Source: Massilibacillus massiliensis (GTDB lineage: Bacteria > Bacillota > Negativicutes > FLKF01). From it: a stretch of DNA of 64,000 bases. Of this stretch, positions 10,828-63,945 are shown one piece after another. The notes under the pieces were generated by a model. It did not search any database and was not told where the DNA came from. It saw only the letters and a program-made list of their open reading frames with translations. The position numbers and the translations under genes were made by a program. Numbering within the stretch: the stretch's first letter is position 1; each line of letters opens with the position of its first letter. The DNA lies in the NCBI RefSeq assembly GCF_900086705.1, contig NZ_LT575483.1:2981516-3045515 (forward strand). Reading direction: 5' to 3'.

Positions 10828-10923
10828 CTATGGACAGATAGGTTGCGGGTCGGCGATAAGCACGTATTTGAGCATTTCTCACTGAAGGGCATCTATCTTC
10901 GTAATCGTTTATAAGTGGAACGA
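10828..10923 (+). repeat. Repeat family B, internally shortened copy
   Basis: Starts with CTATGGACAGATAGG and ends with TTTATAAGTGGAACG, like the full copies at 54061 and 62659. The inner variable stem and its conserved loop are missing. It lies 15 bases after the stop of the DUF1266-like gene. Confidence 0.75.
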
Positions 10924-26649: not shown

Positions 26650-26655
26650 TGTATA

Positions 26656-26704
26656 CTTCTCACCAACCGGCAGCCTATCTTCGTACTAGTATATAAGTGG
26701 AACG
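26656..26704 (+). repeat. Repeat family B, right-end fragment
   Basis: Matches the right end of full copies: ACTTCTCACCAACCGGCA, then CCTATCTTCGTACTAG and ATATAAGTGGAACG. The left half is absent. Confidence 0.75.
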
Positions 26705-26748
26705 AATGCTAAGTTATTAACATAAATATAGTAGTTTTCTACAGTCTG

Positions 26749-52529: not shown

Positions 52530-54059
52530 ATGGAAAAATTAACTGCACCTGTAGCATTAGTTATTTTAGATGGTTGGGGTGTTGGGGATTCAAACGATTC
52601 TAATAATGCAATTGCCATTGCAAAGACACCCGTCATGGATAGTTTGATGAAAAAATATCCAAATACAACCTTAAAGTGTTCTGGAGAAGCGGTTGGACTA
52701 CCAGATGGACAAATGGGAAATTCGGAAGTTGGGCATTTGAATATCGGAGCTGGACGAATTGTTTATCAGGAGCTCACTCGCATTACGAAGGCAATTCGAG
52801 ATGGTGAATTCTTTAATAATCCAGTCCTTTTAGATGTGATTGAAAAGGTAAAGAAACAGAATAGTGCCCTGCATTTGATGGGCTTAGTATCTGATGGCGG
52901 TGTACACAGCCATAACACGCACTTATATGCGTTGTTAGAATTAGCAAAGAAACAAGGTTTGAAAGAAGTCTATGTGCATGCATTTTTAGATGGTCGTGAT
53001 GTACCGCCATCAAGTGCGGCCGAGTATGTGCAACTGCTTGAAAAGAAAGTTGCTGAAATTGGTGTGGGAAAAATAGCGACTCTTTCCGGTCGTTACTATG
53101 CCATGGATCGTGATAAACGCTGGGAACGTGTTGAAAAAGCATATTTAGCAATTGCTTGCGGCGAAGGTGAGAAAGCTAAAAGTGCAGTAGATGCCGTAAA
53201 AGCTTCCTATGAAGCGGGCAAAACTGACGAATTTGTAATACCAGTTGCAATTGGTGCGTATGCTGGTATGAAGGAAGGCGACGGCGCAATATTCTTTAAC
53301 TTCCGTCCGGATAGAGCAAGAGAATTGACGCATGTCTTTACTGACAAAGAGTTTGATGGATTCAGTCGTAAAAAAGGTTATATAGACCTTGCTTTTGCGA
53401 CGATGACACAATATGAAAAAGGGCTCAATGTCACAATTGCCTATGAACCGCAAACTTTGACCAATACGCTTGGCGAGGTATTGCACAAAGAAGGCATGAA
53501 ACAGCTTCGAATCGCTGAGACTGAAAAATATGCCCATGTTACATTCTTCTTTAATGGCGGGGTAGAAGCACCGCTTGAAGGTGAAGAACGTATTTTAGTT
53601 CCTTCTCCGAAAGTTGCAACCTATGATTTGCAACCGGAAATGAGCGCAAATGAAGTTACGGATAAAGTCGTTGAACAAATTCGTGCGAAAAATCATGATG
53701 TCATTATCCTTAACTTTGCAAATGGTGATATGGTTGGTCACACCGGCGTTCTTTCCGCAGCTGTCAAAGCGGTTGAAACAGTAGATGCATGTGTAGGTCG
53801 CTTAGTTGAGGCGATGCAGGCAGTAAATGGTACAGTTTGTATCACCGCTGACCATGGCAATGCAGAGATGATGTTGGATACTGTGACAGGTGAACCATTT
53901 ACAGCACATACGACAAATGTTGTACCGTTCATTGTTATTTCTGATAAAATTGCGAAAGTAAATACAGGTCGTTTATGTGATATTGCACCTACCTTATTAG
54001 ATATTGCAGGTGTGAAGGTTCCACAAGAGATGACTGGGAAATCTTTAATAGGTGGATAA
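52530..54059 (+). CDS. gpmI: Cofactor-independent phosphoglycerate mutase
   Basis: A 509-residue Mn-dependent mutase of the alkaline phosphatase superfamily. Metal Asp is in LVILDGWG, the phosphoserine nucleophile in [17 protein letters not shown], substrate Arg/Asp in FLDGRDVPP, and C-terminal metal ligands in ADHGNAEMM and [11 protein letters not shown]. Last gene of the operon here; enolase does not follow. A composite B+A repeat begins 2 bases after the stop. Confidence 0.97.
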
Positions 54060-54060
54060 A

Positions 54061-54233
54061 TGAGGACAGATAGGCGGCGGGTTGGCGATAAGCACTCATC
54101 TGCGTCGTTGCATGAAGGTGCTGTTCGTCGACGTACGCCAGTACGACTCCTTCACAGCCCCTTCATGCGCCTAGCATCTGAGCACTTCTCACCAACCGGC
54201 AACCTATCTTCGTACTAGTTTATACGTGGAACG
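54061..54233 (+). repeat. Repeat family B, full copy
   Basis: A large imperfect palindrome. The basal arms (GACAGATAGG... and ...CCTATCTTCG) enclose a variable stem GCATGAAGGTGCTG / CAGCCCCTTCATGC and a conserved tip TCGTCGACGTACG-CC-AGTACGACTCCTTC. It ends TTTATACGTGGAACG. Confidence 0.9.
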
Positions 54234-54239
54234 TATTTT

Positions 54240-54274
54240 AGTAGATGGTATTCACTTTGTGAATACCATCTACT
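54240..54274. repeat. Perfect hairpin inside the composite repeat
   Basis: Arms AGTAGATGGTATTCAC and GTGAATACCATCTACT with a TTT loop, 16 base pairs. The counterpart at 62614-62649 has matched base changes in both arms. Confidence 0.85.
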
Positions 54275-54285
54275 TTGTCTTGAGC

Positions 54286-54314
54286 CTGCCGCATTTTAAT
54301 GCGGCAGTTTTTTT
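54286..54314 (+). terminator. T-tailed hairpin inside the composite repeat
   Basis: CTGCCGCATT-TT-AATGCGGCAG followed by seven T. It would terminate the glycolytic operon. Confidence 0.85.
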
Positions 54315-54322
54315 CGTCCTTT

Positions 54323-54496
54323 GGCCTTTTCCGGAAAAATACGTTCCGAAGGATGAAAAATGACCGGCTTACGTTAAGAAATTTGCATGTCTGAACGAAG
54401 TGAGTTTGCGAATTTTAGTAAGCCGGTCATTTTTCAAGTATTTTGGAGGTTTTAGGCCTAGACTTTTTGGTCCTTTTGTGGCAATGACAAAAGGAC
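54323..54496 (+). repeat. Repeat family A, copy 4
   Basis: Stem 54356-54372 (AAAAATGACCGGCTTAC) pairs perfectly over 17 bases with 54418-54434. Flanks match copy 1 closely. Confidence 0.9.
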
Positions 54497-54567
54497 ACCT
54501 ATGCATATAGAGGTATTAAGATTTTTAGTGCGATTGCTTTATTTATATGTAATCCATATAAATAAAT

Positions 54568-54621
54568 TTTACAAATTTTTAACATAGCGATAACAAATCT
54601 TTCCTTTTAAAAGTCTACAAT
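54568..54621 (+). promoter_or_regulatory. Pho boxes and promoter of the phosphatase operon
   Basis: Three direct hexamers TTTACA, TTAACA and ATAACA start at 54568, 54579 and 54590, an exact 11-base period, which matches PhoP/PhoB boxes of Gram-positives (TT-ACA repeats). A TACAAT -10 box follows at 54616-54621. It implies induction by phosphate starvation. Confidence 0.65.
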
Positions 54622-54633
54622 GAAACTACAGAG

Positions 54634-54744
54634 CTAGTACCTTGCGCAAAAAAATACGCTGCTTAGCTTACGAAACTTTTTCACAATATCCAAAATCTTT
54701 ACACCCTGATATCAGATTTGACCATAGTTAAGTCAAGGTACTAG
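54634..54744. promoter_or_regulatory. Long-range inverted repeat in the phosphatase leader
   Basis: CTAGTACCTTG (54634-54644) and CAAGGTACTAG (54734-54744) are perfect complements 89 bases apart. The second arm is followed by TTTTTA. In the mRNA it could form a closed leader domain or an attenuator ahead of the ribosome binding site. Confidence 0.45.
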
Positions 54745-54785
54745 TTTTTAATATTTCGTTTATATTGAAGGAGGACGCGTTGAGA

Positions 54786-56582
54786 ATGGAATATAAACTG
54801 CCAAAGAATTTAAGGAAGAGTGCATTGGGTTTATGTACAGCATTTACTGTACTTGGTTGCATGACAGGGGCGACAGCAAGTGGTTTTGCAGCACCTTATG
54901 TTATGCAGCAGACTTCATCAATTACAGTATTACCAATTGATCATGCAAAGTTGATTGCTGGACAGAAATTTGATTTTTTAATTGAAGTAAAAGATGCAGC
55001 AACAAATGATATTCAAGTGACGATTAATGGTAAATCAGCAGAAAAATATTTTGGGAAAGCTGCCGTTGTTTCTATGGATGGAACTATGGCGACCTATCGT
55101 ATTGATCAAGTTGAGATGAAAAAAGCTGGCAATATAGACATTGTTGTAAATGCAAATGGTAGTAAGCGCGTTGTAAATTATAATATTGTTGCAGATAAAG
55201 CACAGAAAAAAGCAAAGAATGTAATTCTTTTTGTCGGCGATGGCATGAGTTTGCAAGCACGTGAAATGGCACGTATTTTGTCAAAAGGCATGACTGAAGG
55301 AAAATTTAACGATACGCTTGAGATGGAAAAGTTATCGAACATGGCGATTGTAACGACTTCTGGTTATGATTCATTGGTTACGGATTCTGCAAATAGTGCA
55401 TCTGCATATGCTACGGGACAAAAAGGTGTAGTAAATTCTATGGGCGTTTATGCCAATAGCACGAAAGATCCGCTTGATGATCCAAATGTGGAGAATATTG
55501 TGGAACTTGTGAAACGTACACGCGGCATGTCAACAGGTTTAGTGACGACTTCGAATATTACAGATGCGACTCCGGCTGCTATGGTAGCGCATACTCGTAA
55601 ACGCAGTGAACAAAATTTTATTGCGCAAAATATGCTGGATGAAATGCATCGTCCGGATGTTATTTTGGGGGGCGGTGCAAGACAATTCTTACCGATGAGC
55701 ACACCAGGTTCAAAACGAAAAGATGAAGTAAATGTCATTGATGAGTTTAAAAATCTTGGCTATCAATTTTCTGGAACGAAATCAGAGCTTCTTGCGACTC
55801 CGAAAGATTCAAATAAGTTGTTAGGTTTATATCAATTGGACAATTTAAATGTGTATATTGACCGGGAAATGACAAAAAATCCTAAAGTATTGGGCGGTTT
55901 TCAAGATCAACCGGGGCTTGTGGATATGACGAAAAAAGCGATTGATACGCTAAGCAAAAATAAAAATGGTTTCTTTTTAATGGTTGAAGGTGCCTGTATA
56001 GATAAACAATTGCACACGATGGATTGGCAAAGAGCCGCATATGATAATATAGAATTAGATAAAGCGGTTGGTGCAGCCAGAACTTTTGCAAAACAAAATG
56101 ATGATACGTTAATTATTGTCGTTGCCGATCATTCTCATGGAGCTAGTATCACGGGTACATATCATGAAAAAGACGGCAAAACGGGACGAGAAGCTGTACG
56201 TACGTATGCAAATGCAGGCTTTCCGACTTTTGAGGATAAAGATGGCGACGGATATCCGGAAAATCCGGATCCAGATGTAACTTTAGCCGTACAATATGCA
56301 AATCATCCAGATGTGAATATGGATTATAGGTTTAAACCGGAGCCGATATCACCAGCAATCATGGCAAATGATAAAGCAATTGCCAATCCTAACATAAAAG
56401 GACAGTTTTTTGAAGGAAACATTCCTGCAGATGAGAGCTCAGAGGTACATTCGGCTGATGATGTAATCTTGAATGCCGATGGCCCGGGCGCGGAATATTT
56501 TAAAGGGGTTATGGATAATACGGAAGTATTCTTTGGAATGGTACGTGCCCTTGGAATTGATGGAAATAAAAACAATAAATAA
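54786..56582 (+). CDS. Alkaline phosphatase (exported)
   Basis: A protein of about 598 residues with a signal peptide (about 1-40, ending TASGFAAP) and an N-terminal beta domain (about 45-140). The alkaline phosphatase core starts with FVGDGMSLQAREMARI. The nucleophile serine lies in VTDSANSASAYATG, the metal ligands in MVEGACIDKQLHTMDW and VVADHSHGASITGTYH. A DKDGDGYPENPDPD segment near 485-498 looks like a calcium-binding loop. It is a zinc/magnesium enzyme releasing phosphate outside the cytoplasm. Pho boxes upstream fit this role. The start may also be TTG 54780 or 54765. It heads an operon with a zinc-type transporter. Confidence 0.93.
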   Translation: MEYKLPKNLRKSALGLCTAFTVLGCMTGATASGFAAPYVMQQTSSITVLPIDHAKLIAGQKFDFLIEVKDAATNDIQVTINGKSAEKYFGKAAVVSMDGTMATYRIDQVEMKKAGNIDIVVNANGSKRVVNYNIVADKAQKKAKNVILFVGDGMSLQAREMARILSKGMTEGKFNDTLEMEKLSNMAIVTTSGYDSLVTDSANSASAYATGQKGVVNSMGVYANSTKDPLDDPNVENIVELVKRTRGMSTGLVTTSNITDATPAAMVAHTRKRSEQNFIAQNMLDEMHRPDVILGGGARQFLPMSTPGSKRKDEVNVIDEFKNLGYQFSGTKSELLATPKDSNKLLGLYQLDNLNVYIDREMTKNPKVLGGFQDQPGLVDMTKKAIDTLSKNKNGFFLMVEGACIDKQLHTMDWQRAAYDNIELDKAVGAARTFAKQNDDTLIIVVADHSHGASITGTYHEKDGKTGREAVRTYANAGFPTFEDKDGDGYPENPDPDVTLAVQYANHPDVNMDYRFKPEPISPAIMANDKAIANPNIKGQFFEGNIPADESSEVHSADDVILNADGPGAEYFKGVMDNTEVFFGMVRALGIDGNKNNK

Positions 56583-56603
56583 GTAAAAGGGAGGCAAATC
56601 AAA

Positions 56604-57140
56604 ATGAAGAGACTAGTACAATGGAGTATCGGCATATACTTTGGGCTGTTGCTGGCTAGTGTTTTTTCACCATATGATTCGCCTAAACAGGCGGTTCCGA
56701 TTGCGGAATCGCCCCTTTTCTTTCGGACAGCACAGGCTGCATTTTGGGATGGATGGTTTAATGAAACGCCGATTGATATACAGTTCTCAGAAATGTATGA
56801 ATCCGTATCATCGTTAGGAATTACGATGTCGGGTAAACTGCAAAATGCCGAAGGACATCGCGTACGTATGGTAGGGTTCATGGCGCCGCCGTTAAAACCT
56901 ACGATTCATTTTTTTGTACTTACACGGGAGCCGATGGCAATCTGCCCATTTTGTTCTAGTGATGCCGATTGGCCAAGTGATATTGTTGTTGTGAAACTCA
57001 GCGAACCTATAACATCATTGCCATTTGATAAACCAATTTATGTGACGGGAAAATTGGAATTGGGAACGCAGGTAGATGAGGAGACAGGATTTGTAAGTTT
57101 GGTTAGAATTCAAGCCGATAGTTTAGAAGCACTCGATTGA
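56604..57140 (+). CDS. Exported DUF3299-like protein (ZrgD-like)
   Basis: A 178-residue protein with an N-terminal signal/anchor (about 6-24). The core matches the DUF3299-type pattern: GHRVRMVGFMAPPLKP, then FFVLTREPMAICPFCSSDADWP with a CxxC that could bind metal, and PIYVTGKLELG. In Vibrio a similar protein (ZrgD) is encoded with the ZrgABC zinc transporter; my assignment is by recollection of that family. 21 bases after the phosphatase, and followed by ABC ATPase and permease genes. Confidence 0.65.
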   Translation: MKRLVQWSIGIYFGLLLASVFSPYDSPKQAVPIAESPLFFRTAQAAFWDGWFNETPIDIQFSEMYESVSSLGITMSGKLQNAEGHRVRMVGFMAPPLKPTIHFFVLTREPMAICPFCSSDADWPSDIVVVKLSEPITSLPFDKPIYVTGKLELGTQVDEETGFVSLVRIQADSLEALD

Positions 57141-57180
57141 GTAAATCAAGAAGATGTAAAAATTTTTAAAGTGCGGAGAA

Positions 57181-57861
57181 ATGAATATGCTGGAAATTAA
57201 AAATTTGCTCAAACAAGTAAGTCTGCCAAATGGCAAAATTTTAACGATTGCAAGAGTGGATGCGTTAAAGGTCAATTCAGGTGAGCAAATGTTGTTGGTT
57301 GGTCCGAGTGGTTCAGGAAAAACGACATTGCTGCATATGATCGCAGGGCTGCTCATCCCCACAAGCGGTATGGTTAAATGTGATGACGTAGAAATAAATC
57401 AATTATCTTCAAAAGAATGTGATCAGTGGCGGGCCCAAAATGTTGGCTACATTTTTCAGAAATTAAATTTGCTGAATGGATTGACTGTAGGAGAGAATAT
57501 CAGGATTGCTGCTCATTTTGCCGGACAAAAAGATCGTGCTAAAATTCTTAAAGATGCTAAAGAACTGCTGGAGATCGTCGGTCTGGCTGATAAGCTGCAT
57601 ATGAAGCCAAATCGACTAAGTGTCGGTGAACAGCAGAGAGTAGCTGTGGCCAGAGCAGTAATTAATAAGCCTAAACTTATCTTAGCAGATGAACCAACTG
57701 CCAGCTTAGATCAAGAGAATGCAGGTATTATTTTAGATTTGCTCAAAAAACTTTGCAGTGAAAACAATAGCAAGCTGCTAATCAGTACCCATGATCCGAT
57801 TGTTATGGGGAAATTCGGACATTGTTATGAGATGAGAATGCAAAGGGAGGCGGCAGTATGA
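57181..57861 (+). CDS. ABC transporter ATPase (LolD/MacB type, ZrgC-like)
   Basis: A 226-residue ABC ATPase with Walker A GPSGSGKTTLL, Q-loop YIFQKLNLLNG, signature LSVGEQQRVAVARA, Walker B LILADEPTASLD and H-loop STHDP. It belongs to the LolD/FtsE-like subfamily. Its stop overlaps the permease start (ATGA). An in-frame ATG at 57187 is an alternative start. Confidence 0.9.
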   Translation: MNMLEIKNLLKQVSLPNGKILTIARVDALKVNSGEQMLLVGPSGSGKTTLLHMIAGLLIPTSGMVKCDDVEINQLSSKECDQWRAQNVGYIFQKLNLLNGLTVGENIRIAAHFAGQKDRAKILKDAKELLEIVGLADKLHMKPNRLSVGEQQRVAVARAVINKPKLILADEPTASLDQENAGIILDLLKKLCSENNSKLLISTHDPIVMGKFGHCYEMRMQREAAV

Positions 57862-59099
57862 CACATTTGCTGATCATCTGGCGGAATATTTGGGAGAAAC
57901 CTTTACAGAGTGCTTTGAGTATCCTCTTGATTGGCTGTTCGATAGCTTTGACAATCGTTGTTATGCTGCTTGCGGCAAGTATTCAGCAAGGTCTGATTAA
58001 AGCGGCAGAACCATTCGATTTAATTGTAGGAGCAAAGGGGAGCCCCAATCAATTGGTGTTAAATACTGTGTTTTTACAGGATATACCGATTGGAAATATT
58101 GGATATGATTTAGTCGATGAACTAGAAAAAAATCCATTGGTAGAATCGGCGATCCCAATTGGGTTTGGCGATAATTATCGCGGTTTTCGTATCATCAGTA
58201 CGGAAGAAGAAATTTTCACGCATACGATAAAAAGCGGTGCACCGATTTGGCTTCAGCTAGAGCAGGGAAGAAAATTTTCGGCTCCGTTCGAAGCGGTTAT
58301 TGGAGCGAAGACTGCAGCGGAGACTGGACTTCGGATCGGGGATCAGTTTTCTTCTTCACATGGTGTAGTTGCGGGAAACAGTGGAGACGAGCATGCAGAG
58401 AAGTTTACAGTGGTCGGTATTTTAAAAGAACTTCACGGCCCTTATGACAGCGGTATTTTAGTTTCTTTAGAGAGTACTTGGAAACTGCATGAACATAATG
58501 GACATGATGGAGAGCAGAAACACGATGAGACTGTGGCGATAGAGCATGATGAAAATCACGATCATGAAAAATCTACGACGGTAATTTTAGTAAAACCTAA
58601 AGGATATGCCGAAGCGATGCAGCTTTATCAACAATTTCAGAAGCAACACGATGCACAATTGATTTTTCCATCTCAAGTTGTAGTCAAGCTATTTGCAATT
58701 TTAGGTGAAGGTCAGAAAATATTACAGATCATTGGCTATGCAGTGCTTGCTATGGCACTTCTTGTCAGTGCATTTTCTTTATATTGGTCAGCACTCAGCC
58801 GAACCAGAGAACGGGCAATTTTGCGATCGATTGGTGCAGGGAATCGTGATATTTTAGCAATTGTATTCGGAGAGGGTGTAATTTTAATTACAAGCGGGAT
58901 TGTATTTGGAACAGCCTTAGGTCATAGTGCCTTTTCGATGATTGCACGTGTTTTACAGCAGAAGACCTCTATTGCAATTACGGGAAGCTTTACGCTAGGT
59001 GAAGCTAATATGCTAATAGCGGTACTGATTGTTGGTATCTTGGCGAGTGTTGTGCCGGCGGTGCACACTGCGAAATCGGATATTGGTGATGGACTATAG
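57858..59099 (+). CDS. FtsX/MacB-type ABC permease with His-rich loop (ZrgB-like)
   Basis: A 413-residue permease with one N-terminal and three C-terminal membrane segments (FtsX fold; RTRERAILRSIGAGNRDI before the last part). The large outer domain holds a His/Asp/Glu-rich stretch near residues 212-238 (HEHNGHDGEQKHDE, then EHDENHDHEKS), which strongly suggests binding of zinc or a similar metal. ZrgB of Vibrio has the same general layout. The histidine-rich ZrgA partner is not seen here. Confidence 0.8.
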   Translation: MTHLLIIWRNIWEKPLQSALSILLIGCSIALTIVVMLLAASIQQGLIKAAEPFDLIVGAKGSPNQLVLNTVFLQDIPIGNIGYDLVDELEKNPLVESAIPIGFGDNYRGFRIISTEEEIFTHTIKSGAPIWLQLEQGRKFSAPFEAVIGAKTAAETGLRIGDQFSSSHGVVAGNSGDEHAEKFTVVGILKELHGPYDSGILVSLESTWKLHEHNGHDGEQKHDETVAIEHDENHDHEKSTTVILVKPKGYAEAMQLYQQFQKQHDAQLIFPSQVVVKLFAILGEGQKILQIIGYAVLAMALLVSAFSLYWSALSRTRERAILRSIGAGNRDILAIVFGEGVILITSGIVFGTALGHSAFSMIARVLQQKTSIAITGSFTLGEANMLIAVLIVGILASVVPAVHTAKSDIGDGL

Positions 59100-59133
59100 T
59101 GTTTAAGTAAAAAAATGTAGTGAAGTAAATGAC

Positions 59134-59214
59134 AAGCATAAGTGATCACGCAGCGCATTCTGTTTGCAACTCAAATGTGGCCGATTGCGTGATTCATCTT
59201 ATGCTTATTTTATG
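59134..59214 (+). terminator. Large hairpin after the transporter operon
   Basis: AAGCATAAG pairs with CTTATGCTT and ATCACGCA with TGCGTGAT around a 33-base loop, followed by ATTTTATG. Confidence 0.6.
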
Positions 59215-59222
59215 CAAAAAAA

Positions 59223-59262
59223 TAATGTTGAAATAAGCTTTCATTTCGCTTATCTCAACATT
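59223..59262 (-). terminator. Terminator of the minus-strand gene
   Basis: AATGTTGA-A-ATAAGC and GCTTAT-C-TCAACATT, then T/A-rich flanks on both sides. Confidence 0.6.
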
Positions 59263-59304
59263 GGTGCGTGAATTTTTATAATCAGTTAAATCTTATGAAG
59301 TAAA

Positions 59305-59901
59305 TTAGACGGATAGTTGAATCGAAGATGTGGCAGATGTCGGATTTGCAGCACTGCTTCCGGCATTTTTTGCTTTTGCTGCAGCATTCCATGCGACATT
59401 ATATATACTGCAAAGTTCGACTTGACGAGCATTTTCGGCCTTTGTACTAAAGGAGGTCCAGCCGTTATTTGAATAAGTAGCGACCATTTCACCATTATCG
59501 TCGTAAAACTCAGCATAAGTTAGGCTTTTCGCTTCTTTGTGGTATTTGGCAGTGCCAAAGAGGTAATCAATCAAGTTAAGCGGCTCAGGCTGCGTTTTAT
59601 TATTTTTGTATATTGCCGTTAGGCCATTGGAAATAATACTTTTTCTATCTGGCGAAACAACAGAAACATAACTTTTTTCTAAGCTTCTAAAACCAGCCGA
59701 GTCAGATTGAAATTTTCCAGCCGCTTGGTCTTTTTTTGCTTGATCAATGATTGCTTTTTGGTATTTTCCCTCACTCATGGCGGGGGCCGTTTTTGTATTG
59801 AATTGAAAACCGGTATAGTCAGGTAATTTTGCATTGCCTGTTTTTTTTGTATTAGAAACTAGCTGACTTTGTGCAAAAGTATTGTAATTTTCTATGCGCA
59901 T
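59305..59901 (-). CDS. Hypothetical protein
   Basis: A 198-residue protein with no signal peptide or membrane segment and no family that I recognise. Its N-terminus (MRIENYNTFAQSQLV) and Ala/Ser/Thr-rich C-terminal tail ending IQLSV recall secreted axial or flagellum-associated proteins, which also lack signal peptides. The FliD-like protein at 62848 has a similar composition. The link is weak. GGGAG precedes the ATG. Confidence 0.5.
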   Translation of the reverse strand: MRIENYNTFAQSQLVSNTKKTGNAKLPDYTGFQFNTKTAPAMSEGKYQKAIIDQAKKDQAAGKFQSDSAGFRSLEKSYVSVVSPDRKSIISNGLTAIYKNNKTQPEPLNLIDYLFGTAKYHKEAKSLTYAEFYDDNGEMVATYSNNGWTSFSTKAENARQVELCSIYNVAWNAAAKAKNAGSSAANPTSATSSIQLSV

Positions 59902-60331
59902 TTTTTATGTACTCCCTATACTGTAATTTTACTGAAGCGCTTAAATGGTTATTGATTTTATGCAAACTTTGCTTTTTATGTATGCGGCAATGTCAGTAAC
60001 CAATTTACTACCTTCTATACTATATATCGAAGTTTTTAATAGAAACTAAAGTCGAAGAAGTAAATATGTAAAATTAATCCAATGTATTTTGATGAAGGAG
60101 AATATTTAGTTGCATTATTTTAATCATTTTAGCACATAAAACTCATTTTATAACAATAGAACTAAAATTTGACAAATTGTACATAAAATGATATTATTCT
60201 AATGAATTTATAAATTATATTTATAGGAGCGTGGTGAATATATCGGGTGTAATTAATGTATAGTTGATTCATATATAGTATTTATACAAAAGATCAGATC
60301 TAAATATTAATATAAAAGGAATGTTTTAAAA
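59902..60331. other. Divergent intergenic region with chemoreceptor promoter
   Basis: No gene is seen. A strong sigma-A-type promoter lies at 60169-60197: TTGACA, 17-base spacer, TATTAT. The leader to the chemoreceptor is about 130 bases. Confidence 0.6.
60169..60197 (+). promoter_or_regulatory. Chemoreceptor promoter
   Basis: TTGACA (60169-60174), 17 bases, TATTAT (60192-60197). Confidence 0.75.
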
Positions 60332-62371
60332 GTGAAGTATGATAAACAATTCAATACAGTTAGAGCGAAGTTTTTAATTACACTAATCCCTTTGTTTATA
60401 TTAAGTTTTGTTATTTTATCGGGAATTAGCTATTATGTCGCAAATAAAGCTTTATTAACAAGTGCAGATGAAATTGCGCGTGAAGTAGGCGATAAATTTG
60501 CGGTGAAGATTGCAAATGAAATTGATGAAAAAATGATTCGTTTAGATGAGTTAGCAGCTATGCCGGAAATTGTCGACGGAGATGAGGCGGCAAAAGTTAA
60601 AACTTTAGCGGCGGCAAAAAATAGAAGTGCCGGTTTTGATATGATTTGCTATACAAATTTAGATGGTGTAGCGATTAATGAAACTGGTTTACATATGGAA
60701 CGCGGCGACCGTGAATACATAAAAAAAGTAAAAGAAACGAAGAAAGCTTATGTTTCTAATCCATTTGTTTCGGGAACAAGTGGAAAGTTGATTACAGTTT
60801 TGGTACGCCCGGTGATGAAGAATGATACGTTAATTGGGTATGTTTTTGGAACGATTAGTTTAGAAAATCTGTCAAAAATGATGGAACAAGTAAAGTTTAA
60901 AGAAACTGGTTATGGGTATCTCGCAGATCATTCAGGTTTGGTATTAGGATATGGAACCAAACCTGAAATGGCGGGTAAATTAAATTTGACGGAGAAAAAA
61001 GTAAATCCAGAATTGAATTCTGCCGGAACAGAACTTGATGATCGTTTAATCAATGGGTTTAAAGATGTAGCGGCTTCCGGCAAGCAAACTTCATCTGCGT
61101 ATACAACTTCTTTAGGGATAGATTCCGTGGCGGTCATGACACCGGTTGAACTGGATGGACGCCGTTGGATTATGGTTGTGACTGCACCGAAAGCAGAAGT
61201 GCAGAGCGAGGCTATGTTATTGTTTAAGGTAATGACAGGAATTTCTATTCTATTTATTCTTTTAGCGATTTTTGTTATTTACTTTTTTGCAAAACGTATT
61301 TCTAAGCCGATTGAAACCATCCGTGATGAATGTGCTGTCTTAAATACTGGAGATTTGCGACAGGATCATGTGAGTGTAGTTTCTAAAGATGAAATTGGAC
61401 AGTTATCCAGTGGTTTTCACGATATGAGAAAAACATTACGCAAACTGATTCAAAAGATGCAGGATCAGTCCCAACAAGTTGCCAGTGCTAGTGAAGAGCT
61501 TACGGCAGGTGCACAGCAATCTGCAGAAGCGGCTACGCAAGTCGCTGCTTCAATTACAGAGATTGCGCAAGGGGTAGAAAAACAATCTGCAGTAGCGGAT
61601 GAAGTAAATGGTGTTGCGCAGCGTTTTTCCGGCAGTGTTACACAAATTGCTGTAAAGTCACAGGATATCGTTGGAATCGTGGAAGAAACTTCAGAGAATG
61701 CCGGGCAAGGACGTGAAGCAATTGCTAGAGCAGTTTCTGAAATGGAGCAGATTGGCGAAGGATCAGAGGCAATTCAACAAGCGATTACGAAATTAGATAA
61801 AGGATCGCAAGAGATTAGCAATATTGTGGAGTTGATTTCTAATATAGCCGGACAGACCAACCTGTTGGCATTAAATGCAGCCATTGAGGCAGCGCGTGCC
61901 GGTGAACAGGGGCGTGGTTTTGCAGTCGTTGCAGAAGAAGTAAGAAAACTTGCGGAAGAATCCAATCAATCTTCGAAAAAGATTGGCGATCTTGTGCAGT
62001 TTAATTTGGCAGATATGCAAGAAGCTGTTATAGCGAGTAAAGAAGGTATTGAGCGTGTTGCCGTCGGCATAGAAGCAGTAAAATCAGCAGATGAAATTTT
62101 TAAAAATATTGTTCGGTCTATTGATAATTTATCAGAAGAAATTACGAGTATTTCTTCTGAAATCAGCCAAATGGCGACTGGCAGTGCAAGCATGTTAGAT
62201 TCTATTGCCAAGATTGATGATGTAAGTAAAACCAATGCAGCCGAAAGTGAGGCAGTATCCGCTGCTACCGAAGAACAATCCGCGGCAATGCAGGAAATTG
62301 CTTCAGCAAGTCAAAATCTAGCAAATTTAGCAACTGAATTGCAGTCAGCTGTAGCAAGATTTAAGGTTTAA
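60332..62371 (+). CDS. Methyl-accepting chemotaxis protein with Cache domain
   Basis: A 679-residue chemoreceptor. It has membrane segment 1 (about 14-36), an extracellular dCache-type sensor (about 40-295), membrane segment 2 (about 300-322), HAMP ([16 protein letters not shown] onward) and a cytoplasmic signalling coiled coil with the hairpin tip [40 protein letters not shown], whose core is [16 protein letters not shown]. It signals to CheA/CheW. Starts at GTG 60332 behind AAAGGAATG. No other che genes are near. Confidence 0.94.
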
Positions 62372-62389
62372 TAAAAAAATGGGGGGGGA

Positions 62390-62562
62390 TGTCCTTTTGG
62401 CATCGACCCAAAAGGACCAAAAAGTCTAGGCCTAAACCTCCAAAAAACTTGAAAAAATAGTGGCTTGCTAAAATCCTTAACTCGCTTCGCTCAGACAAAC
62501 GGATTTCTTTACGCAAGCCACTATTTTTTCATCCTTCGGAACGTATTTTTCCGGAAAAGGCC
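62390..62562 (-). repeat. Repeat family A, copy 5
   Basis: Stem 62452-62468 (AAAAAATAGTGGCTTGC) pairs perfectly over 17 bases with 62513-62529. The loop holds CTCGCTTCGCTCAGACAAAC, the most regular version of a loop seen in all copies. Confidence 0.9.
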
Positions 62563-62577
62563 GGGGACGCAAAAAAA

Positions 62578-62597
62578 TGCCGCATTTTAATGCGGCA
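62578..62597 (-). terminator. T-tailed hairpin inside the composite repeat
   Basis: TGCCGCATT-TT-AATGCGGCA, preceded on the plus strand by seven A, so it ends transcripts running leftwards (from the FliD-like gene). Confidence 0.8.
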
Positions 62598-62613
62598 TTC
62601 AAACTGTAGACAA

Positions 62614-62649
62614 AGTAGCATGTATTCACCTAGGTGAATACATGCTACT
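62614..62649. repeat. Perfect 36-base palindrome inside the composite repeat
   Basis: AGTAGCATGTATTCACCT and its exact complement, with no loop. Counterpart of 54240-54274, with compensating differences at two stem positions. Confidence 0.85.
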
Positions 62650-62658
62650 AAAATTTTC

Positions 62659-62833
62659 GTTCCACTTATAAACTAGCACGAAGATAGGTTGCCGGTTGGT
62701 GAGAAGTGCTCAGATGCTAGGCGCAATAATGGGGCTGCGAAGGAGTCGTACTTCCGTACGTCGACGAGCAGCCCCATTATTGCAACGACGCAGATGGGCG
62801 CTTCTCGCCGACCCGCGGCCTATCTGTCCTCAG
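62659..62833 (-). repeat. Repeat family B, full copy
   Basis: Plus-strand RNA would form about 30 basal pairs with one mismatch and six G-U pairs. An internal loop follows, then a perfect 16-bp stem GCAATAATGGGGCTGC / GCAGCCCCATTATTGC and the conserved tip GAAGGAGTCGTAC-TTCC-GTACGTCGACGA. The inner stem sequence differs from the 54061 copy. Confidence 0.9.
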
Positions 62834-62847
62834 TGTATCAATGAATA

Positions 62848-63582
62848 TTATGCATATAAGTCTGCAAGCAACCCAAGCGATGCTGAGGATGTAGTCATTT
62901 TTGTAAAATCGGGGAAAGGGACTAGATCACTCGCTCGATTGCTTGCAATTTTAATTTTTGTATAAGCTTGATTGGCAAGCCCTGTTGAACCGCCTAACAA
63001 GGATTGCACAGAGCCGTATTCATTTTTAACGGCATCTGTTAAAGCTTCTTTGTCAGCTGCCATAGTTCCATCCTTTTGTACCGTTATGCCAATCGTTGCG
63101 AGTGATTTTCTTAAACTGCTTGTTCCGCTGGAAAAGGAGACGGATAGTGCAGATAATGCGGAAGAAGTATTAGAATTTTTATTAAATAATTTAGTAGTCG
63201 CATTGTAATCGTCGACAAAAGCAGTAATACGATCAACGGTGTCTTTCGTGGAGGTATCGGTATTTTTTAATGTATCGGTGAGTTTTGCTGAAGAAGTCTG
63301 TAGATTCGTAGAAGTAGACGCAAAAGCCGGATAGAAAGCATTGGAGGTTTTTGTGTATTTTTGCATCGTTGCTAAAATGAGTCCAGGATCGGCTGCAGCG
63401 TTTTTTGAAGAAAAACTTGAATTCCAGAGTGTTTGATTTGAAGAAGAGGTAGAACCGGAATTGAATAAATAATCGTAGGAATTAGAGGTTGAAAGAACAG
63501 AATTAAATTTACTGTTGTTTTTGGCAAGTGTATATTTTAAATAAGACATATTACTTTGTGCTGTTACGGAATTGACATTCAT
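62848..63582 (-). CDS. FliD-like flagellar protein, short form
   Basis: A protein of about 244 residues, Ser/Thr/Asn-rich, with no signal peptide. The C-terminal half resembles the C-terminal domain of the flagellar cap protein FliD: VDRITAFVDDYNATTKLF, then SLATIGITVQKDGTMAADKEAL, and AVKNEYGSVQSLLGGSTGLANQ. The central D2/D3 cap domains of FliD are missing, so it is either a minimal cap-like protein or a related exported axial protein. ATG at 63582 follows AGAGGTGA. The stop codon lies 14 bases from the composite repeat. Confidence 0.6.
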   Translation of the reverse strand: MNVNSVTAQSNMSYLKYTLAKNNSKFNSVLSTSNSYDYLFNSGSTSSSNQTLWNSSFSSKNAAADPGLILATMQKYTKTSNAFYPAFASTSTNLQTSSAKLTDTLKNTDTSTKDTVDRITAFVDDYNATTKLFNKNSNTSSALSALSVSFSSGTSSLRKSLATIGITVQKDGTMAADKEALTDAVKNEYGSVQSLLGGSTGLANQAYTKIKIASNRASDLVPFPDFTKMTTSSASLGLLADLYA

Positions 63583-63945
63583 AAAAATCACCTCTTAACT
63601 TTTTATATTTCGTTATTTATCTATTTCATCGGCATTTTTGTTGTACAACTTAAATAAATTCAATAAAAATATAAGCTTATGGATAAACCATGCTCGTAAT
63701 ATTCTTTGTCTTGCTAAAGGAAAGGCAGCAAAGTATATGGGAAGTGATGGAGATGAGAGGAGTTTTGAGGAAACTTGCAGCTATCTGCTTTAACGGCATA
63801 TTGGCTGAAATCGGCAGGAATAGGATGATTTTGGGCGGTTCGCCAAAGTCATGAGATCAATGCTATAATAGATTTGTAAAGCTATTAAACTTTACAAATA
63901 AAGAACAACATAGATTGATGTTGTTCCTATAAGGGGTTAGATATT
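63583..63945. other. Intergenic region with SMR promoter and leader hairpin
   Basis: No credible gene is seen. A TATAAT box lies near 63863-63868. A hairpin GAACAACAT-AGATTG-ATGTTGTTC at 63903-63926 sits in the predicted leader just before the ribosome binding site. Confidence 0.5.

Follow-up and report, generated by a model that had tools for sequence, protein, structure and literature searches.

A dispersed two-stem hairpin with a conserved junction, a one-stranded wobble bias and replaceable inner modules in bacteria of many phyla

Hairpin B is a non-coding repeat of about 120–170 nt with two stacked stems, which is spread through the genomes of many bacterial phyla in tens to hundreds of copies. 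We consider it reasonably probable that it is a trans-mobilised, non-autonomous mosaic hairpin of the REP/BIME kind, whose inner module moves between copies. If this is true, a conserved non-coding mobile element has stayed uncatalogued in many phyla despite the 50–100 scored copies that a genome may hold. The wobble bias of its fixed strand would offer a clean means of asking whether dispersed bacterial palindromes are under selection as ssDNA or as RNA, and the retention of outer stems around replaced inner parts at orthologous sites makes module exchange among dispersed repeats directly testable.

The window, i.e. the whole 64-kb stretch of Massilibacillus massiliensis DNA that was analysed, holds two full and two degenerate copies of hairpin B (Table 1), found in a search with R1, a covariance model built from 38 copies of the window genome. 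The first-pass annotation had placed the full copies at 54061–54233 and 62659–62833, and both hairpins are present there. Copy 1 begins 2 nt past the stop codon of a gpmI-like gene (52530–54059, + strand); copy 2 comes after a fliD-like gene (62848–63591, − strand), with an MCP-like gene (60332–62371, + strand) on its other side. On the plus strand, the segments 54050–54245 and 62650–62845 fold with z scores of −4.65 and −11.43, respectively, and none of 200 shuffles was as good in either case. When the minus strand of copy 1 is folded as RNA, the energy is −86.5 kcal/mol (z −8.04), and the two strands of this copy folded as DNA give −41.0 versus −35.1 kcal/mol. The energies of copy 2 are −104.8 kcal/mol for the model strand, which is defined as the strand of hairpin B that folds best, and −78.8 kcal/mol for the opposite strand. 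In copy 2 the plus strand forms, as had been described, some 30 basal pairs interrupted by one mismatch. The inner stems had been said to pair although their sequences differ, and they do so, with an unbroken run of 16 pairs in copy 2 and two runs, of 9 and 5 pairs, separated by one mismatch in copy 1.

The model strand reads, in order, a conserved flank of about 24 nt, the outer stem, the junction GATGCTAGGCG / CAACGACGCAGATG, the inner stem and the tip CGTAC-NNNN-GTACG. The tip is indeed found in both window copies, but the proposed loop sequence, GNNA, fails elsewhere and all four loop bases vary. The tip had also been taken as the part kept in sequence; the most deeply conserved part is the junction, which is common across phyla, while tips vary. 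CGCCCTAGTAC replaces CGTCGACGTAC in 3 of 40 copies of the window genome. Judging from the letters, the AGAT present on both junction arms would allow tandem G·A pairing in the model strand and would give C·T mismatches in the complementary one. At the base of the inner stem the gene-sense strand reads CTG-CGTC-GTTG.

Both full window copies form the left part of a longer composite that continues with a further hairpin, a terminator and a second element, "A". Such an arrangement, with a variable hairpin, an intrinsic terminator and repeat A, is frequent for the hairpin B copies of the window genome; the right part accompanies hairpin B in many copies and also occurs without it. By folding energy, repeat A favours the strand opposite to that of hairpin B in most copies. 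Deletions between short direct repeats within hairpin B were also seen.

Table 1. Hairpin B copies and associated features in the window
Feature	Position	Strand	Remarks
Full copy 1	54064–54233	− (model strand, the strand under structural selection)	R1 match, 204.3 bits
Copy 1, junction, 5' half	54168–54178	−	Reads GATGCTAGGCG on the model strand; common to many phyla
Copy 1, junction, 3' half	54097–54110	−	Reads CAACGACGCAGATG on the model strand; common to many phyla
Copy 1, inner module (inner stem + tip)	54111–54167	−	From sequence; module replaced as a unit in a related genus
Copy 1, tip	54132–54136, 54137–54140, 54141–54145		CGTAC, loop, GTACG
Composite right part, copy 1	54240–54515	+	Hairpin 54240–54274; terminator-like stem 54286–54307 and T run; repeat A to about 54515
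Full copy 2	62658–62829	+ (model strand)	R1 match, 191.8 bits
Copy 2, junction, 5' half	62713–62723	+	GATGCTAGGCG, from sequence
Copy 2, junction, 3' half	62783–62796	+	CAACGACGCAGATG, from sequence
Copy 2, inner module	62724–62782	+	From sequence
Copy 2, tip	62747–62751, 62752–62755, 62756–62760		CGTAC, loop, GTACG
Composite right part, copy 2	62390–62655	−, inverted	Hairpin, terminator, repeat A; inverted repeats I3, I8
Truncated copy	10832–10922	−	Outer stem only, without inner module; R1 49.6 bits; aligned by eye with a full copy
Fragment	about 26655–26707	−	One outer arm and conserved flank only; direct repeat D4; partial R1 match

A DNA search of the window genome returned at least 40 full-length copies with 85–100% identity, and the R1 search found at least 47 copies on the 4-Mb chromosome, spread over 2.7 Mb. 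In the alignment of 38 copies, 98.7% of the cells at the 51 proposed pairs are standard pairs, and double-sided changes occur at 15 pairs, compared to 5.8 ± 1.3 after shuffling. None of 500 shuffles reached the observed value on any of five covariation measures, and pairing falls to 27–49% when the partner is slid by 1–3 columns. The view that the stems are kept by pairing and not by sequence is thus borne out. Copies with unpaired inner stems, which had been named as evidence against it, were searched for and are rare; truncated copies without the inner part exist.

R1 matches occur in 26 of 60 genomes of the Negativicutes, the class of the window genome. The exact junction, GATGCTAGGCG...CAACGACGCAGATG, was found in at least 118 stretches of the genome collection, when about 0.06 are expected by chance according to our own estimate. 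Among the matches listed are Desulfobacterota, Chloroflexi, Rokubacteria, Bdellovibrio, Myxococcales, Gemmatimonadetes, Acidobacteria, Pseudomonas, Acidovorax, Bacteroidales, Elusimicrobia, Phycisphaerales and others, and hairpin arms flank the junction on both sides in the cases inspected. Within the phylum of the window genome, 398 sampled genomes gave the exact pattern in the window genome only; the distribution is therefore patchy. The outer stem of a copy from a Pelosinus MAG (L210) is nearly the same as that of the window genome, and Sporomusa silvacetica (L195) carries a similar copy. A search of IMG/VR returned no match, and blastn with two queries from Desulfobacterota and Rokubacteria found none in plasmids or phages, which is a weak absence given the two queries. 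At the gathering score, Rfam 15 matches nothing in the window nor at the element in 18 multi-phylum loci. Weak Rfam matches at lax E-values looked like chance. A search of the open-access literature by sequence and by description yielded no account of hairpin B, and Skipping-rope RNA, considered as a lead, gave no usable paper. We thus found neither a catalogue entry (Rfam) nor a published description (open-access literature) of hairpin B.

In all 40 copies of the window genome, folding shows the strand antisense to the direction of the upstream gene to be the more stable one. Because the junction by itself tips folding energies towards one strand, the comparison across genomes rests on counts of G·U and A·C, taken from an alignment that treats both arms and strands symmetrically and so presupposes no strand. 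In the outer stems, the G·U:A·C ratio on the model strand is 145:24 in the window genome, 63:2 in G001, 36:5 in G053, 27:2 in G048 and 153:23 in 118 loci of many phyla. Although single cells cannot be counted as independent events, the lineages can, and G·U far exceeds A·C in the outer stems of every many-copy lineage. The inner stems show 35:4 in the window genome and a weaker 61:32 across phyla; in G053 and the small-copy f5 genomes they lean, with small numbers, the opposite way, and in some others too they depart from the outer-stem bias. The multi-phylum bias holds in both gene orientations, i.e. 24:4 at loci whose model strand is that of the mRNA and 56:12 at antisense loci. A transcription-linked mutation bias would not behave in this way, and selection on a single folded strand explains the counts better: it is the single-stranded fold of one fixed strand that is under selection. 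The same strand bias is expected if the selected form were RNA.

The occupancy of sites differs between species. Compared with G001, the window genome has one copy at the same site and in the same orientation (L028/L122) and one shared intergenic region in which the orientations are opposite (L032/L123), and most of the G001 copies compared have no counterpart among the window-genome copies compared. Turnover was followed in five congeners of a related genus (G053 and G448–G451), which has about 50–100 scored copies per genome, by looking up 14 G053 sites in the others; the evidence of gain, loss and inversion is accordingly evidence between species. Orthologous sites are empty in several cases (e.g., L110, L112 and L117 in G449, and L104, L105 and L114 in G451), and the hairpin is inverted at the orthologous site of L110 in G450. 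No clear target-site duplication was seen at the empty sites of these congeners, whose flanks are too diverged to define junctions.

When a site is shared in the same orientation, mean identity is 89% for the outer arms and 63% for the inner modules. Of the 28 pairs, 25 have the lower identity in the inner module (Wilcoxon p = 1.9e-7, for pairs that are not independent). Part of this inner divergence consists of nested palindromes, which at several sites are inserted at the same positions, in the tip or in the junction's 3' half. Pairs without length change have outer and inner identities of 0.97 vs 0.66 (L110) and 0.93 vs 0.73 (L101). L110 in G053 and L117 in G451, a different site in another species, have inner modules of 62 nt that are identical letter for letter, and within G053 both main outer types are found combined with both main inner types. 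The lower inner identity, the shared module and the mixed types together indicate that inner modules behave as units that move between copies. Inner-stem variability is not a matter of compensated point mutation alone: at orthologous sites, the related genus replaces whole inner modules under an outer stem that persists. Replacement was observed in that genus; the inner stems of the window genome differ mainly by compensated point changes.

In the window genome, 37 of 40 copies come shortly after a co-directional gene, most of them no more than 60 nt from its stop codon, so that the selected strand is the antisense strand there. The preceding genes are dispersed and often housekeeping. Across phyla, under a strict rule, the model strand is antisense at 43 loci and sense at 25, and placements near genes are at gene ends in 84 cases and at gene starts in 39. 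If the origin is placed at the GC-skew switch near 2.1–2.3 Mb, 40 of the 47 copies of the window genome have their model strand on the leading-strand template. The earlier expectation of a wobble-consistent strand is right in that a single strand is selected, but this strand is antisense to the preceding gene in those 37 copies, which means that hairpin B is not a feature of the mRNA of that gene in the window genome.

An RNA role for hairpin B is possible. This explanation, which takes up the first-pass proposal of a protein- or RNA-binding hairpin, holds that a promoter of its own or a convergent one drives transcription of the model strand, that the conserved junction binds a protein or an RNA, and that at gene 3' ends the hairpin protects mRNA, terminates transcription or exerts antisense control. 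It would account for the covariation and its G·U intermediates on a single strand, for the conservation of an internal junction and for the location of copies at gene ends, and also for the Sporomusa-like genomes, where the hairpin lies directly 5' of the 23S rRNA and the model strand is the rRNA strand. We nevertheless consider it unlikely, because of the antisense position of the selected strand in the window genome, the mixed orientation to genes across phyla, the existence of orthologous genes that lack the hairpin or carry it inverted, and the absence of any matching Rfam family.

According to the reading preferred here, that of a mosaic hairpin mobilised in trans, a trans-acting enzyme would recognise the model strand as a hairpin while it is single-stranded. 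The single-stranded form could be DNA that replication or repair leaves unpaired, or else a transcript, and ssDNA is presumably the main one. Copies would spread in trans to gene 3' ends and other intergenic sites; they are lost and can invert. In genomes with many copies, the module inside the conserved junction is swapped as a unit for that of another copy, plausibly by conversion during the repair of a cleaved (extruded) hairpin, with another copy as template. Binding of the folded strand, in DNA or RNA form, by a protein would be the simplest reason for the conservation of the junction sequence. It might even be, as we suggest tentatively, that the junction is where an undescribed enzyme of wide distribution recombines or cleaves the folded single strand and so exchanges modules between copies, in which case bacteria of many phyla would carry interchangeable hairpin cassettes at gene 3' ends. 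An all-against-all comparison of the ORFs near copies, made in search of a linked gene, returned only housekeeping families and artefacts of rRNA regions; no gene family, and hence no parental gene, was seen to recur next to hairpin B.

The Y1 (HUH) tyrosine transposases of the genome could be the mobiliser, hairpin B being then a REP-like element whose model strand is the single strand that is cut. The single-strand hairpin and the distribution at gene ends are indeed REP-like, and a Y1 gene is present in 25 of 26 hairpin-positive Negativicutes genomes, compared to 21 of 34 negative ones (p = 0.0018). However, the rank correlation of Y1 counts with copy number disappears once genome size is taken into account (partial rho about 0), as it does among genomes of at least 2.5 Mb (p = 0.30). 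None of the four Y1 loci of the window genome is flanked by hairpin B in the R1 search, the copy-rich G053 has one weak Y1 match, and the position of the model strand on the leading-strand template is opposite to that expected from a simple lagging-strand mechanism. This origin is thus improbable. It is still harder to believe that the copies are inert debris, neutral palindromes whose pairing is kept by template-switch correction in replication, because this correction, although it would yield double changes without selection and although the deletions mentioned above are seen, is strand-blind, yet the G·U bias is one-stranded in many lineages and both gene orientations, and because the junction, which is conserved across phyla, is not a perfect palindrome.

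Among known systems, intergenic multicopy palindromic families have been reported in Geobacter genomes, one class being described as similar to sequences in many other genomes (PMC2700814, PMC2996986). The likeness to hairpin B is one of description, and part of the family may have been noticed already. Integron attC sites resemble hairpin B in their working only, as imperfect hairpins after a stop codon in which structure matters more than sequence and the strand opposite to the gene folds. Hairpin B copies follow dispersed genes, unlike attC sites, which stand in cassette arrays, and the attC end boxes RYYYAAC and GTTRRRY are absent from the 38-copy consensus, as read by eye.

Bacterial MITEs and long palindromes of the ERIC/YPAL type are similar in size (about 100–250 bp), and are likewise non-coding, dispersed, hairpin-forming and found at transcribed intergenic positions. 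In hairpin B no terminal inverted repeat of a known IS was seen, nor a clear target duplication at the empty sites with their diverged flanks; unlike both groups, it is conserved at an internal junction and not at its ends, and it spans phyla (the comparison with ERIC/YPAL being by description, with use of the summary in PMC3733652).

Together with the MITEs, the nearest known kind is that of the REP/BIME elements of the GTAG- and CGTC-tagged superfamilies (PMC3733652), which are also multicopy extragenic palindromes of many phyla, lie mostly downstream of genes, fold as single strands and form mosaics. By the broad REP/BIME definition, that of multicopy extragenic palindromes enriched downstream of genes, hairpin B belongs with them (37/40 in the window genome; 84 vs 39 across phyla). 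Di Nocera et al. (2013, PMC3733652) described CGTC repeats, which likewise lack a linked transposase. Assignment to the GTAG-REPs with a flanked RAYT/Y1 was rejected, no R1 match being found around the four Y1 genes of the window genome, and membership of the CGTC-REPs is excluded by the size of hairpin B and the internal position of its tag. REPs measure 20–40 bp with a single short stem, which is of 8–9 bp in the CGTC types, and have an unpaired tag at one end (PMC3733652), whereas hairpin B measures 120–170 nt, has two stacked stems, shows the tag-like CGTC of its gene-sense strand nowhere but within the hairpin, at the junction, and has inner modules that are replaced inside an outer stem that is kept.

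Across the whole Massilibacillus massiliensis chromosome (G000:C6), all 47 copies of hairpin B lie between 1.1 and 3.77 Mb, and none of the 47 is found in the terminus-proximal third. The orientation of the hairpin switches along with the GC skew near 2.1–2.3 Mb, and 40 of the 47 copies are consistent with this pattern.

Repeat A, which stands beside copies of hairpin B in a composite, is a second multicopy structured element, with covarying stems of its own and the layout GGCCTTTTCCGGAAAAATACGTTCCGAAGGATG-variable stem-...TTTTTCAAGTATTTTGGAGG. Solo copies are present across the same genome. The strand that folds better is mostly the gene-sense strand for repeat A, and the opposite one for hairpin B.

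In congeners of G053, two further palindromes are repeatedly found inserted within the hairpin, each always at its own place: one interrupts the tip, the other the junction's 3' half. Five short-form copies of the M. massiliensis genome (L018, L034, L038, L039 and L041) are flanked on both sides by terminator-like hairpins of one kind, the two having identical stems and partly different loops.

The genome also encodes RAYT-like Y1 transposases of about 255 amino acids (L278–L280). The genes L278 and L280 have GGGACAAGGGGACAG-type flanks of their own, which are unrelated to hairpin B.

Coordinates and sites of the features (site/genome: hairpin site of congener G053 looked up in another congener)
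Feature	Location	Strand	Description
Repeat A	window 54308-54515	+	multicopy structured element
Repeat A	window 62390-62577	-	multicopy structured element
Nested palindrome insertions	L112/G451, L117/G450, L118/G448; and L117/G451, L117/G448, L118/G450, L103/G450		
L278-L280	about 1.262, 1.267 and 0.964 Mb, own genome		RAYT-like Y1 genes

In the Sporomusa-like genomes G004, G023 and G055, the 16S–23S spacer of several rRNA operons carries a copy of the hairpin directly before the 23S rRNA (L139–L154), where it might affect rRNA processing.
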